NCBI GenBank assembly: GCA_913009575.1
Contig: CAJVWH010000006.1
Coordinates: forward strand, 1-33,592
Direction: 5' to 3'
DNA from: an uncultured bacterium
GTDB lineage: Bacteria > Patescibacteriota > Minisyncoccia > UBA9983
Length of the DNA: 33,592 nt
Below the pieces are notes generated by a model. The model was not told the DNA's origin. It was given only the letters and a program-made list of their open reading frames with translations, and made no database searches. Below are positions 9,448 to 19,028 of this stretch, piece by piece (the first letter of the stretch is position 1; each line of letters begins with the position of its first letter). Position numbers and translations under genes: made by a program.

Positions 9448-10273
9448 TTTTTTTCAGGAGTTTTATGTCTTCTATGACTTCCGGCCAGTCGGTTTCGCAG
9501 ATTAAATCTATTTTGTTTTTCTTCGCGAATTGCGCGAATTTTTTGAACGCTTCACCGCCGATTTTTCCTTCACCAATGTGGGCGTGGCGGTCTTTCCGTG
9601 AACCGGTTTCCGTCAAACTGTCGTTGGAGTGAATCAGCTTCACTTTTTCAATTCCAATCCACTTGTCCAAAATTTTCATATTTTTTTCAAAATCGTTTTT
9701 CCAATCGTAGCCGGAGGCGAAGCCGTGCTGGGTGTCCAGACATATTCCGGCGAGTTTCGGCGAGTTTATCGCTTTCATTATTTTTCCGATTTCTTCAAAA
9801 TCGCCGCCGATTATTTTTCCCGCTCCGGCGGAGTTTTCAATGAGCAGTTTAGCGGAACCGCCGTATCCGTCCAAAACTTTTTTCAGTCCCTCAACAACCT
9901 TGTTTTCGGCTATCGCATAGCCGAATTCTTTCGCGCTTCCAAGGTGGGTCATCACATATTTCGCTCCCAGAGCGCTCGCGCGTTCCAGCTCGTCCCTTAT
10001 CGCTTTGATTGAGCCGTAGCGGACGCGGTTGCTTGCCGAGGCGAGATTTATGTAGTAGGGAGTATGGACATAAACATTTTCAATTTTGTTTTTCGCGATT
10101 TTGTTTTTGAAGTTCTTGATTATCTTTTCGTCCAGCTCCGGTGATGCTCCGCCTTGCGGGGAGCGGGTGAAAATCTGCATCACCTCGCAACCGGCGGCAA
10201 CGGCCCACTCAGGCGCTTTATCAACCCCTCCGGCTATGGAAACATGGCATCCAACCTTTGTCATTATATCCAT
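9431..10273 (-). CDS. nfo: Endonuclease IV (AP endonuclease)
   Basis: GCHVSIAGGVDKAPEWA, HTPYYINLAS, HLGSAKEFGY, ICLDTQHGFASGYD, LIHSNDSLTETGSRKDRHAHIGEG. Confidence 0.95.
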   Translation of the reverse strand: MDIMTKVGCHVSIAGGVDKAPEWAVAAGCEVMQIFTRSPQGGASPELDEKIIKNFKNKIAKNKIENVYVHTPYYINLASASNRVRYGSIKAIRDELERASALGAKYVMTHLGSAKEFGYAIAENKVVEGLKKVLDGYGGSAKLLIENSAGAGKIIGGDFEEIGKIMKAINSPKLAGICLDTQHGFASGYDWKNDFEKNMKILDKWIGIEKVKLIHSNDSLTETGSRKDRHAHIGEGKIGGEAFKKFAQFAKKNKIDLICETDWPEVIEDIKLLKKITSSQ

Positions 10274-10293
10274 TATATATTAAGATGTGGTTT

Positions 10294-11382
10294 ATGTCGT
10301 TATCAATAGGAATCGTCGGTCTGCCGAATGTGGGGAAAAGCACGCTTTTCAAGGCGTTGACCAAAAAGCAGGTGGACATACAAAATTATCCCTTCTGCAC
10401 CATTGACCCGAACGTGGGCGTGGTGAAGGTTCCGGACGAACGCCTGCAAAAGCTGGCGGAGTTTTCACGTTTCGCGAAGACGGTTCCGGCGGCGGTGGAA
10501 TTTGTGGACATCGCCGGCCTGGTGAAAGGAGCTGCCGAAGGGGAAGGGCTGGGAAACAAATTTTTGGCGAACATCCGCGAGGTGGACGCGATTTGCGAGG
10601 TCGTGCGCATATTTAAGAATGAAAAAATTACTCATGTCCATAATAAGATTGACCCGGAAAACGATATTGGGGTTATAGAGACGGAATTGATTTTGGCTGA
10701 TTTGGAAACGGCGAACAAGAGCGAGCGCAATCTTGAAAAAGAAGTCAGGGCGGGGGACAAGGAGGCGATAAAAAAAATGGAAGCGGTTAAAAAAATCAAG
10801 GCGACTTTGGAGAAGAGCGAGCCGGCCAGAAAGGCCGGGCTGGATGAGGATGAGCCGGCGCTCGTGAAAGACTTGCATCTGCTCACATTCAAGCCGATTC
10901 TTTATGTTTTTAATGTTTCGGGGATGGAGAAAGATTGGAAGTTGCCCTCCTCCATTACGGACACAGAGGGAAATGATTCCGGAGGGCAAACTTCCAATCT
11001 TTCTCAAAATGTTGTTTTGGATATTAAACTTGAAGAGGATTTACTGGAGATGAACGAGGATGACAAGAAGGAATTGGAGGTGAAAAGCGACTTGGATAAG
11101 CTCATCGTGGAGGCGTATAAATTGCTCGGGCTTATGACTTTTTTCACGACCGGCGAGGACGAAACGCGCGCGTGGACGATTAAAAAAGGTTCAACGGCGC
11201 CGCAGGCGGGCGCGGCAATACATACCGACTTCCAAGAGAAATTTATACGAGCGGATGTCATAAATTGGAAAGATTTGCTGGATGCCGGCTCTTACGCCGT
11301 CGCCCGCGAAAAAGGCCTTGTCCGAACGGAGGGGAAAGATTACATTGTGAAAGACGGCGATGTTATAGAATTTAAAATATAA
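10294..11382 (+). CDS. ychF: Redox-regulated ATPase YchF (OBG family)
   Basis: MSLSIGIVGLPNVGKSTLFKALT, PFCTIDPNVGVVKVPDERL, DIAGLVKGAAEGEGLGNKFL, C-terminal TGS domain. ATG at 10294 is the better start than the track's 10258. Confidence 0.95.
   Translation: MSLSIGIVGLPNVGKSTLFKALTKKQVDIQNYPFCTIDPNVGVVKVPDERLQKLAEFSRFAKTVPAAVEFVDIAGLVKGAAEGEGLGNKFLANIREVDAICEVVRIFKNEKITHVHNKIDPENDIGVIETELILADLETANKSERNLEKEVRAGDKEAIKKMEAVKKIKATLEKSEPARKAGLDEDEPALVKDLHLLTFKPILYVFNVSGMEKDWKLPSSITDTEGNDSGGQTSNLSQNVVLDIKLEEDLLEMNEDDKKELEVKSDLDKLIVEAYKLLGLMTFFTTGEDETRAWTIKKGSTAPQAGAAIHTDFQEKFIRADVINWKDLLDAGSYAVAREKGLVRTEGKDYIVKDGDVIEFKI
10927..11005. repeat. In-frame palindromic element inside ychF
   Basis: GAGAAAGATTGGAAGTTGCCCTCC (10927-10950) and GGAGGGCAAACTTCCAATCTTTCTC (10981-11005): 24-bp complementary arms with one extra A, 30-nt loop. 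Confidence 0.9.
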
Positions 11383-11923: not shown

Positions 11924-14440
11924 ATGCGTTCATATAATCCCCAAAAAATAGAGTCAAAATGGCAAAAGGTTTGGGAGGAAAAAGGTTTTTATAAGGCGGA
12001 AGATTTTTCCAAAAAACCGAAATATTATTGCCTGATTGAATTTCCTTATCCGTCCGGGGACGGTCTGCATGTCGGGCATATCAGGAGCAATACCGCCATG
12101 GATATCATCGCCCGCAAGCGGAGAATGGAGGGTTATAATGTGCTTTATCCGATCGGGTGGGACGCGTTCGGTCTTCCGACAGAGAATTACGCGATCAAAA
12201 TAGGCGTTCATCCGTCTGTTGTTACCAAACGGAATACGGACAAGTTCAGAAAGCAGCTTAAGGCGATCGGCTTTTCTTTTGATTGGAGCAGGGAAATAAA
12301 CACCACTGACCCGGAATATTACAAATGGACGCAGTGGATTTTTTTACAATTTTACAAAAAAGGGCTCGCGTATAAAAAAAAGATGCCGATAAATTGGTGC
12401 CTTTCGTGCAAAACGGGACTGGCGAACGAGGAGGTCGTTGACGGCAAATGCGAACGCTGCGGCGGAGAGGTGGAGAAGAGGGAAAAGGACCAGTGGATGC
12501 TGGCAATTACAAAATACGCCGACCGGCTGGCGAAGGATTTGGATGATGTTGATTATCTGGAAAAAATCAAAATCCAGCAGAGGAATTGGATAGGGAAGAG
12601 CGAAGGGACTTTGATTAAATTTGGAATCGTCGGAGAGGGTGAAGAGCTTGCTCCTCAAGGTCAGACCTCCTCCCGCCCTCAGGGCTCCTCAAGGTCAGAC
12701 CTCCTCCCGCAAGTTGAGGTTTTCACTACAAGGGTTGATACGCTTTTTGGCGCCACTTATTGTGTTCTTGCGCCGGAGCATCCGCTCATTGGCGAATTGA
12801 AGGGGCAAATTGAAAATTGGGACGAGATTGAAAAATATCGCCAAGAGGCCGCCCAAAAAGCGGAAATGGAAAGGACGGCGGAAGGGAAAGAGAAGACAGG
12901 GGTTGAATTGAAGGGCGTGAAGGCGGTGAATCCCGCGAACGGGGAAGAGATTCCGATTTTTGCCGCGGACTACGTTTTGGGACATTATGGAACGGGAGAG
13001 GTGATGGCGGTGCCGGCGCACGACGAGCGGGATTATGAGTTCGCGAAAAAGTTTGGGTTGCCGATAAAGCAAGTAATCGCCGGAAATACGGAAACGGAAA
13101 TTCCCGCCTCCTCCGGTGGAGCGTTCACGGGAGATGGCGTTTTGGTCAACTCCGGAGAGTTTACCGGCATGGATTCAAAAAAAGCCCGCAGCGAAGTCAC
13201 GAGATGGCTGGAGAAAAGAGGACTTGGCGGCAAGAAAACAACTTACAAACTTCGCGATTGGATTTTTTCGCGGCAGCGTTATTGGGGTGAGCCGATACCG
13301 ATTATTTTTTGCGGGAAGTGCGGAGAAGTTCCGGTTCCGGAAAAAGATTTGCCGGTAAAGCTTCCCGAAGTGAAAAAATACAAACCGACTAATACCGGCG
13401 AATCTCCACTGGCAAGAATTGACAAATGGGTTAATGTGAAATGCCCGAAATGCGGAGGAAAAGCGGAAAGGGAAACGGATACCATGCCGAATTGGGCCGG
13501 CTCGTCCTGGTATTTTTTACGCTATGCAGATCCGAAGAATTCGGAAGTGCCAGCGGATAAAAAGAAATTGGAATACTGGATGCCGGTTGACTGGTACAAC
13601 GGCGGGATGGAGCATACAACCCTGCATCTTCTTTATTCGCGTTTTTGGAATAAATTTTTGCATGATATCGGAATTGTTCCGGTAAGCGAGCCGTACAAAA
13701 AAAGGACCGCCCATGGAATGATTCTTGGAGAGGGCGGGGAAAAAATGTCAAAGTCAAAAGGGAATGTCGTAAACCCGGACGATATCGTGAAAACTTACGG
13801 GGCCGACACCCTGCGTCTTTATGAGATGTTTATGGGCCCGTTTGATCAGGCGATTCCGTGGAGCGCGGAGAGTATGATAGGATTGAGAAGGTTTCTGGAA
13901 AAAATTTGGAAATTGCAGTACCGCTTGACCCACTTGGAGACTAAGTCTCCAAGTGGATTTGGAGACTTAGTCTCCAAATTGGAGGCGGAAGTTCACAGGA
14001 CTATTAAAAAAGTGACGGAAGATATTGAGGAAATGAAATTCAACACGGCGATTTCACAAATGATGATTTTGGTTAATGAAATGGAAAAACAAAAAGAAAT
14101 AAGCGCCGTTGATTATTCCTTGATTATCACCCTCTTGGCTCCTTTTGCTCCGCACATCGCCGAAGAATTATGGAGCTTGTTGGGAAATAAAAATTCTGTC
14201 TTTGGAGAGTCTTGGCCCGAATATAATCCGAAAAAAATCAAAGAAAATTTCTTTAAATTAATTATTCAAATAAACGGAAAAACTCGCGATATATTGGAGG
14301 TTTCTGATGGAATTTCGGAAGAAGACGTTCGGGCGTTGACATTGGAACGAGAAAATGTTAAAAAATGGATAAAGGACAAACCGATTAAAAGAGTTATTTT
14401 TGTTTCAAATAAACTTATTAATATAGTAATCAATAATTGA
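11924..14440 (+). CDS. leuS: Leucyl-tRNA synthetase
   Basis: FPYPSGDGLHVGHIRSNTAMDI, GWDAFGLPTENYA, editing domain EVFTTRVDTLFGATYCVLAPEHPL, GGEKMSKSKGNVVNPDDIV. Confidence 0.97.
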   Translation: MRSYNPQKIESKWQKVWEEKGFYKAEDFSKKPKYYCLIEFPYPSGDGLHVGHIRSNTAMDIIARKRRMEGYNVLYPIGWDAFGLPTENYAIKIGVHPSVVTKRNTDKFRKQLKAIGFSFDWSREINTTDPEYYKWTQWIFLQFYKKGLAYKKKMPINWCLSCKTGLANEEVVDGKCERCGGEVEKREKDQWMLAITKYADRLAKDLDDVDYLEKIKIQQRNWIGKSEGTLIKFGIVGEGEELAPQGQTSSRPQGSSRSDLLPQVEVFTTRVDTLFGATYCVLAPEHPLIGELKGQIENWDEIEKYRQEAAQKAEMERTAEGKEKTGVELKGVKAVNPANGEEIPIFAADYVLGHYGTGEVMAVPAHDERDYEFAKKFGLPIKQVIAGNTETEIPASSGGAFTGDGVLVNSGEFTGMDSKKARSEVTRWLEKRGLGGKKTTYKLRDWIFSRQRYWGEPIPIIFCGKCGEVPVPEKDLPVKLPEVKKYKPTNTGESPLARIDKWVNVKCPKCGGKAERETDTMPNWAGSSWYFLRYADPKNSEVPADKKKLEYWMPVDWYNGGMEHTTLHLLYSRFWNKFLHDIGIVPVSEPYKKRTAHGMILGEGGEKMSKSKGNVVNPDDIVKTYGADTLRLYEMFMGPFDQAIPWSAESMIGLRRFLEKIWKLQYRLTHLETKSPSGFGDLVSKLEAEVHRTIKKVTEDIEEMKFNTAISQMMILVNEMEKQKEISAVDYSLIITLLAPFAPHIAEELWSLLGNKNSVFGESWPEYNPKKIKENFFKLIIQINGKTRDILEVSDGISEEDVRALTLERENVKKWIKDKPIKRVIFVSNKLINIVINN
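12650..12710. repeat. Two 27-bp direct repeats with palindromic cores inside leuS
   Basis: GCTCCTCAAGGTCAGACCTCCTCCCGC at 12650-12676 and identically at 12684-12710; includes palindromes AGGTC-A-GACCT (twice) and GCCCT-C-AGGGC. Confidence 0.9.
13930..13979. repeat. Double palindrome inside leuS
   Basis: CCACTTGGAGACT-A-AGTCTCCAAGTGG (13930-13956) directly followed by ATTTGGAGACT-T-AGTCTCCAAAT (13957-13979). Confidence 0.95.
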
Positions 14441-17828: not shown

Positions 17829-19028
17829 ATGCGAAACGGGAAAAAGAAAACAAAGGTTTTTGTCGCCATGTCAGGCGGGGTGGACAGCTCTGTGGCGGTC
17901 TTATTGCTCAAACAAAAGGGATATGATTTGGCGGGGTGTTTTATAAAGGGATGGTATCCCGCTGGGTTTATGTGTGATTGGAAACGGGACAGGCGGGACG
18001 CGATGAGAGTTTGCGCCAGGCTCGGCATACCATTCATCACCATTGACGCGGAAAAGGAATACAAGCGGGAGGTGGTGGATTATATGATACGCGAATACAA
18101 GGCCGGGAGGACTCCCAATCCGGACGTGATGTGCAACAAGAACGTCAAGTTCGGCGTGTTTTTGGAGAAGGCTTTGGAAATGGGCGCGGACAAAATCGCC
18201 ACTGGACATTATGTTAGGTTGCGCCGCGCCCATCAAACGCCGGCCGATCACTTGGAAGTTGAGCTTCCACTTGGAAGCTCAACTTCCAAGTGGCGGTTAC
18301 TTCAAGCCAAGGACAAAAACAAGGACCAATCATATTTTCTCTGGATGCTTACGCAGGAGCAATTAAAGTATTGTATGTTTCCAATCGGCAATTTACTGAA
18401 ACCGAAGGTTAAAAAAATCGCCCGCGAGGCCGGGTTGCATACGGCGGAGAAAGATGAGAGCATGGGAGTTTGTTTTATCGGTGAATTTAATATGGTTGAT
18501 TTCTTGAAGAAGTACATTAAGCCCAAAAAAGGGAAAGTCGTTACCGCGGATGGCGAAGTGGTCGGCGAGCATGAGGGAGCGGTTTTTTATACGATAGGCC
18601 AACGCCACGGATTCGGTGGCGGTGGCGGCATTCCTTATCACATTGTGGCGAAAGACATTAAGAAAAATTTATTGATAGTTGCGGACAAGGCGCGCGAAGG
18701 TGAGTTTTATAAAAAAGAAGTGGAAATTGAAAGTGTAAACTGGATTTCCGGCGAATCGCCAAATCACTTGGGAGCAGGGCACCCAAGTGCACTTGGGTGC
18801 CCTGCTCCCAAGTTGCTGAAGGCGCGCATCCGTTACCGCCAGCCGCTTCAATCCTGCAGAATTATTGTTCCAAAAAACTCCCAACAAAATGGTGTTAATA
18901 AAATGCGGTCGCTTAAAAATAACACCATTTTGGTAAAATTTTTCAAACCGCAGCGCGCCGTTACCCCAGGGCAGTCATTGGTTGTTTATGACGGTCAAAC
19001 GATGCTGGGAGGAGGAATAATAAAATAA
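17829..19028 (+). CDS. mnmA: tRNA 2-thiouridine(34) synthase MnmA
   Basis: VFVAMSGGVDSSVAVLLLKQKGYD, RTPNPDVMCNKNVKFG, KDQSYFLWML, MGVCFIGE, IRYRQPLQSC, VKFFKPQRAVTPGQSLVVYDG. Confidence 0.96.
   Translation: MRNGKKKTKVFVAMSGGVDSSVAVLLLKQKGYDLAGCFIKGWYPAGFMCDWKRDRRDAMRVCARLGIPFITIDAEKEYKREVVDYMIREYKAGRTPNPDVMCNKNVKFGVFLEKALEMGADKIATGHYVRLRRAHQTPADHLEVELPLGSSTSKWRLLQAKDKNKDQSYFLWMLTQEQLKYCMFPIGNLLKPKVKKIAREAGLHTAEKDESMGVCFIGEFNMVDFLKKYIKPKKGKVVTADGEVVGEHEGAVFYTIGQRHGFGGGGGIPYHIVAKDIKKNLLIVADKAREGEFYKKEVEIESVNWISGESPNHLGAGHPSALGCPAPKLLKARIRYRQPLQSCRIIVPKNSQQNGVNKMRSLKNNTILVKFFKPQRAVTPGQSLVVYDGQTMLGGGIIK
18249..18292. repeat. Perfect palindrome in mnmA (copy 1)
   Basis: CACTTGGAAGTTGAGCTTCC-ACTT-GGAAGCTCAACTTCCAAGTG; 20-bp perfect arms. 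Confidence 0.97.
18766..18813. repeat. Perfect 48-bp palindrome in mnmA (copy 2)
   Basis: ACTTGGGAGCAGGGCACCCAAGTG|CACTTGGGTGCCCTGCTCCCAAGT; 24-bp perfect arms, no loop. Confidence 0.97.
18885..18932. repeat. Inverted repeat in mnmA (copy 3)
   Basis: CAAAATGGTGTTA (18885-18897) / TAACACCATTTTG (18920-18932), 13-bp perfect arms, 22-nt loop. Confidence 0.9.

Follow-up and report, generated by a model that had tools for sequence, protein, structure and literature searches.

REPs, REPINs and RAYTs are well known, and REPs that lie in frame within genes are known too. The RAYTs of E. coli and Stenotrophomonas cut and join REP in vitro (PMC8266576), and the mobile unit is held to be the REPIN and not the single REP (PMC3116915). 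In subclass 2.4 the tnpAREP gene is known to contain REPs, and subclass 2.1, characterised by NH[YF]H and Y[IV]HLNP motifs and a length of about 238, has no REPs (PMC6006769). PMC3733652 reports intragenic in-frame REPs in Opitutus terrae, Rickettsia and others, and describes Rickettsia RPE-4 and RPE-6 as CGTC-tagged REPs. CPR groups are mentioned neither in PMC6006769 nor in the parts of PMC3733652 consulted, and a literature search found no paper on REPs in CPR.

The window that we analysed, a stretch of 33,592 nucleotides, is contig 6 of a 651,712-bp, 39-contig genome with CPR gene content, and it holds palindromes in frame within mnmA and leuS (Table 1). We consider it very likely (probability of roughly 0.87) that they are REPINs, non-autonomous elements of a RAYT system in Parcubacteria, and that they were spread by a Y1 HUH transposase.

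Table 1. Elements and host genes of the window; positions are those of the window.
Feature	Position	Strand	Description
REPIN 1 in mnmA	18249..18292	.	two inverted ACTTGG-type REPs, core GGAAGTTGAGCTTCC and its reverse complement; in frame; encodes HLEVELPLGSSTSKW
REPIN 2 in mnmA	18766..18813	.	48 bp (23+2+23), core GGGAGCAGGGCACCC; in frame; encodes HLGAGHPSALGCPAPK
REPIN in leuS	~13932..13979	.	48 bp, core GGAGACTAAGTCTCC; in frame; encodes HLETKSPSGFGDLVSK
mnmA, tRNA 2-thiouridylase	17829..19028	+	hosts two REPINs; Pfam, PDB alignment
leuS, leucyl-tRNA synthetase	11924..14440	+	hosts one REPIN; Pfam
E2 element in ychF	10930..11002	+	conserved ~30-nt loop (CTTAAGAACGGTCATAACGGGAAATTCTACGG or CTTCCATCACGGACATAACGGGAAATGATTCC), ~21-bp variable covarying arms; not an ACTTGG REP
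ychF GTPase gene	10258..11382	+	E2 host; Pfam; true start codon may lie further downstream
E3, possible third in-frame hairpin in mnmA	18885..18932	.	CAAAATGGTGTTA ... TAACACCATTTTG around AATAAAATGCGGTCGCTT

Like the REPIN and REP-RAYT systems of Pseudomonas and enterobacteria (PMC3116915, PMC2817692, PMC8266576), the system comprises short palindromes, inverted doublets and dispersed copies, with a cognate Y1 transposase gene that stands between REPs of its own family, and with several RAYT/REP pairs per genome. Unlike them it has no GTAG foot, its copy number is low, over half of the copies studied are intragenic, the RAYT gene itself carries in-frame copies and a REP overlaps the RAYT promoter. 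With TnpAREP subclass 2.4 (PMC6006769) it shares a transposase gene that has REPs to either side and in-frame REPs within; however, the inserts here stand before HUH and after Y, whereas those of subclass 2.4 stand between them, the motifs are LNPNH and YVNLN where that subclass has NH[IFV]H and YIxNNP, and a GT[AG]G foot is missing here. The intragenic GTAG/CGTC REPs of PMC3733652 resemble ours in being in-frame palindromes in housekeeping, replication and repair genes and often dimers, encoding 20-30 residues; they differ in their ends, and no transposase was found for the CGTC REPs, in contrast to the dedicated one here. What is new is the lineage, the ACTTGG/CCAAGT ends that come without a GTAG or CGTC foot, the clade of RAYTs with LNPNH and YVNLN motifs, and the promoter overlap.

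The first-pass annotation of this DNA had claimed a palindrome with perfect arms in frame within MnmA, further copies elsewhere in mnmA and in leuS, and a family of such elements in conserved genes, with conserved ends and each nested from two half-palindromes, and all of this is borne out. The first copy reads CACTTGGAAGTTGAGCTTCC-ACTT-GGAAGCTCAACTTCCAAGTG and folds as single-stranded DNA with -23.6 kcal/mol (z -11.2), the second mnmA copy has 24-bp arms that are 100% complementary, the leuS copy is as real as these two, and the halves proved to be two inverted REPs, that is, a REPIN. Hairpins with arms of at least 10 and a loop of at most 6 number three in the 13 genes of the window, exactly the two mnmA copies and the leuS copy, against a mean of 0.07 in 100 synonymous-codon shuffles, which rules out chance or codon bias as the source of the palindromes. 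MnmA (399 aa) has three Pfam MnmA domains in the correct order, and the elements give MnmA and LeuS extra loops, each of about 14-16 residues, with peptide stretches such as HLEVELPLGSSTSK and, from the leuS copy, HLETKSPSGFGDLVSK.

A genome-wide search with CACTTGGN{6,36}CCAAGT gave 16 matches at seven sites, and the reversed pattern none. Besides mnmA and leuS, these sites are gatB (in frame), one on contig 1 and two on contig 9, where they flank a Y1 transposase gene; the palindrome is thus a short repeat in multiple dispersed copies. The REP is 23 nt long, ACTTGG-NNNN-NNN-NNNN-CCAAGT, and the REPIN is an inverted pair of it, usually 48 bp, with pairs of 23+2+23 bp in mnmA, leuS, gatB and relatives; a strict script scored 14 of 106 elements as pairs, while in many others the second half is degenerate or overlaps. 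Relatives carry the 23-mer with a wide variety of stem interiors, complementarity being kept. The initial claim that the interiors vary stands, but not that they differ completely: the leuS core is found again in gatB, at the contig 1 site and around the contig 9 RAYT gene. No conserved 5' tetranucleotide such as a GTAG or CGTC foot was found at the REPs, whose flanks have a weak CC ahead of ACTTGG and, following the upstream RAYT copy, a GTGG that extends the pairing. Copy number is low, each genome having about 5-25 exact copies. Among 380 sampled genomes of the phylum, palindrome families are confined to the window's class; the other classes in the sample give at most one match per genome, with stems that are not consistently complementary.

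Three Y1_Tnp (PF01797) genes are present in the genome, on contigs 9, 21 and 7, and PF01797 scores above its cut-off in loci L017, L019 and L306. An invariant H82-x-H84 and Y142 provide the HUH motif and the catalytic Tyr of the RAYTs; NCBIfam REP_Tyr_transpos is matched below its 80-bit cut-off. Both L017 and L019, which are RAYTs of this genome, are flanked by REPs of their own family. On contig 9 the RAYT gene is preceded at 15 bp by a REP and followed at 13 bp by a REPIN, and it contains two further REPs in frame. That of contig 21 (L017), whose Tyr motif YIHLNP agrees with the Y---NP signature, is accompanied by other palindromes, ATCCAAGG...CCTTGGAT, found at loci L052, L053, L057 and L059. 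A second family was predicted from these palindromes before the genome was searched, and the search yielded four new sites (control 0), of which three are in frame within miaA, polA and ligA and the fourth is intergenic near a likely tRNA gene. Near the third RAYT-like gene (L018, contig 7:31458-31688) there is no recognisable REP; similar RAYTs of relatives (L063, L164) have tcatcgacgtc-type palindromes.

Among relatives, most of the larger RAYTs are accompanied by palindromes of their own directly ahead of the gene or behind it, and an in-frame copy frequently lies inside. The ACTTGG REPs go with RAYTs that have the HUH motif LNPNH and the Tyr motif Y[VI]NLN. These LNPNH RAYTs form one clade (99% SH-aLRT), nine of whose ten members carry ACTTGG REPs; conversely, nine of the ten RAYT loci labelled TTGG...CCAA fall in the clade, the tenth, L162, having a TTTGG-type palindrome. 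In the clade Y[VI]NLN is followed by D, N, S, F or Y, which departs from the class 2 Y---NP signature. Most other RAYTs of these genomes match subclass 2.1 in motif and length, yet REPs are present. A phage origin of the LNPNH RAYT was rejected, as no relative was found in viral contigs.

A larger set of 80 LNPNH-clade loci was drawn from GTDB contigs, record titles naming CPR groups among them; some of its records coincide with those of the relatives, so that despite its greater size it is not an entirely independent set. ACTTGG REPs occur at the gene in 60 of the 80 loci, and upstream, inside and downstream in 46; in the remaining 20 of the 80 no ACTTGG REP was found at the gene. REP density at these loci is 46 times that found more than 400 bp away. 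The stems mostly agree within a locus and differ between loci with compensation, a few clade loci mixing stems. The internal copies are found around codons 50-70 and 140-160, and 70 of 72 share one frame. A TATAAT-like box lies within 12 nt past the upstream REP in 26 of 50 RAYT loci, as against 4 of 51 downstream REPs, and in 17 of the 26 its offset leaves 17 nt from TTGGNN. In many loci the REP thus belongs to the promoter region of the RAYT, and it is reasonable to suppose that the RAYT may regulate its own expression through the promoter REP.

The palindromes had at first been likened to the RPEs of Rickettsia. In-frame insertion is indeed shared with the palindromic elements of Rickettsia, but the CGTC tag is missing here, and since the same palindromes stand on both sides of a RAYT gene and within it, the elements are most closely related to REP/RAYT systems with a cognate Y1 transposase rather than to the RPEs. 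RPE-like elements of independent origin, spread by another enzyme and landing frequently around RAYT genes, would account for in-frame inserts in housekeeping genes, which RPEs also show, and for the relative G005, which has 24 exact ACTTGG palindromes and no detectable Y1 transposase at 92% completeness. We regard such an origin as improbable in view of the clade-specific tie of RAYT to REP ends, the stems that agree within most RAYT loci and differ between them, the fixed positions at the RAYT gene, a second family that was found after being predicted, and the lack of a CGTC foot. Because G005 has no detectable RAYT, and because neither mnmA core matches a RAYT seen in the window's own genome, the G005 copies and both of these cores may have been left behind by RAYTs that have since been lost.

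The insertion sites were compared among relatives represented by one genome per species. Alignment places both MnmA sites in loops that are short in most relatives and missing from solved MnmA structures (gaps against 2hma). At the first site the MnmA of G005 has 16 extra residues, YVRLR|NLETGFPSALGNPVSK|LLQARD, and at the second another REPIN; in G010, G006 and G008, REP-like peptides of other sequence occupy one or both loops. The leuS site is filled in the window's genome and in G010, a relative assigned to the same family, and not in G005. In GatB, removal of HLETKSPNQLGDLVSK leaves ISILPKTKHKLGTKVEV, which aligns without a gap to relatives such as ISLRPKGKEKFGTKVEV; the insertion is exactly 48 bp, or 16 codons, and this exact removal indicates that the usual unit is 48 bp, two 23-nt REPs with 2 nt between them.

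Selection on the reading frame was assessed with the 106 elements of this genome and 10 others, 56 of which lie inside non-RAYT ORFs of at least 190 aa. The preference for a reading frame asserted in the first-pass annotation extends to these copies: 32 use the frame xLExxxPS (22.2 expected), 21 use LGxxxSK (15.7) and 3 use TWxxxxQV (18.2), expected counts being derived from the frames open in each element. The depletion of TWxxxxQV (frame c) was equalled in 0 of 200,000 simulations (P<5e-6), although copies of one genome are interrelated, so that the effective sample is below 56. It follows from this depletion that the inserts are translated and that selection filters their frames. Host genes supported by Pfam are gatB (twice), dnaG, fmt, gyrA, tgt, tatD, glyA, secD, gpmI, tpiA, ligA, recR, uvrB, rsmE and several tRNA synthetases, including AlaRS, CysRS and MetRS. 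The same DnaG loop has different REPs in three genomes by sequence, two of which are confirmed by Pfam.

The recurrence of elements at the same loops of MnmA, DnaG and GatB across several relatives could also be expected of immobile hairpins kept for the benefit of the host, through mRNA stability, translation pausing or protein function. Such hairpins would nevertheless be hard to reconcile with different stems at the same loop, their absence from other close relatives, host genes of widely different kinds and the 40 of 106 copies that lie outside long ORFs; tolerated insertions fit better, and we hold a host benefit to be quite improbable, more so than an independent RPE-like origin.

The transposase itself was also modelled. 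An LNPNH RAYT gave an AlphaFold model (pLDDT 85) whose best PDB match is 4er8, the E. coli RAYT-REP hairpin complex (E 1.2e-4), with modest similarity (TM 0.43-0.53). The peptide of the first internal REP falls in residues 52-66 of the model, a region of low confidence that is probably disordered. MITE-like remnants of an IS200/IS605 element, with paired ends joined, are the least probable source, for although that family belongs to the same enzyme superfamily (PF01797) and has subterminal hairpins, the RAYTs here are about 220 aa long and have YVNLN or YIHLNP and not the IS200 Y---Q motif (PMC6006769), this genome has three distinct RAYT genes and not several copies of a single IS, and the best fold match is a RAYT.

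Under the REPIN reading, a REP hairpin exposed in single-stranded DNA would be recognised by its own RAYT, in this genome that of contig 9, and the RAYT would cut and join the hairpin and so spread REPs, with the REPIN rather than the single REP as the likely mobile unit. Homology and co-evolution point to this recognition and transposition, and we infer from them that the elements themselves are mobile. As genes are tightly packed with little intergenic DNA, many insertions would land in coding DNA, and the survivors would be those that are multiples of three, contain no stops, sit in tolerant loops and use one of the two mild frames (xLExxxPS or LGxxxSK).

The ychF palindrome (10927-11005), which had been counted as a probable member of the family, does not belong to it: it lacks ACTTGG ends and, with its conserved loop and variable arms, represents a different element, E2. 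In seven E2 copies from ychF and gatB of this genome and its relatives, 23 of 25 pairs have changed on both sides. A covariance model found 57 copies, which are spread over 10 of 105 genomes and confined to the window's family and one other. Across 33 distinct sequences, in an alignment fitted to the structure, 93.5% of cells pair and covariation is 0.854, compared with 0.249 when shuffled and at most 0.265 when partners are slid. Of the copies looked at, 21 full-length ones are in frame in ORFs of at least 250 aa, hosts besides ychF and gatB being a class-V aminotransferase, a tyrosine recombinase, ksgA, leuS and tsaD. Rfam offered no credible match for the ychF hairpin, the best being miRNA precursor models far below their gathering scores. 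E2 was also considered as a REP of the RAYTs examined; the only clear E2 near 37 RAYT loci lies about 575 bp from the HUH region of L161, so there is no link between E2 and these RAYTs. The E2-bearing loops of GatB and YchF, checked for arms that are inverted copies of host sequence, are hypervariable. The E2 copy in ychF of G005 (L387) is seemingly interrupted by another hairpin-like insertion (GCCCGCC ... GGCGGGC). The leuS frame of G001 (L450) includes a NUDIX domain (PF00293, 1.8e-13) inside the synthetase as well, and about where G001 has its E2 element, LeuS of the window has an insertion (12650-12710) with a 27-bp direct repeat (GCTCCTCAAGGTCAGACCTCCTCCCGC twice).

E3 may be a further case: its loop AATAAAATGCGGTCGCTT is the same in G010, with compensated arms, and is present without arms in G004, and among the loci examined it occurs only in the mnmA of three genomes. 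Elsewhere in the window, an intergenic inverted repeat at 1914-2026 has 27-nt arms, 89% complementary and 59 nt apart. A broader proposal, to which we give even odds, is that at least two unrelated hairpin elements, the RAYT-linked REPINs and E2, which has no Rfam entry, repeatedly invade essential genes of Parcubacteria in frame, and that the RAYT controls its own expression by means of the REP that lies within its promoter and gene.

E2 raises a separate question, namely what makes and maintains intragenic hairpins whose loops are conserved and whose arms change freely. For the REPINs, the reading that we favour would place REP/RAYT systems in Parcubacteria, where they remodel essential proteins encoded by very small genomes. 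With one stem sequence per RAYT, they would offer a natural series for learning how an HUH enzyme reads its hairpin, and the frame bias would be a direct record of the peptide insertions that essential proteins tolerate.
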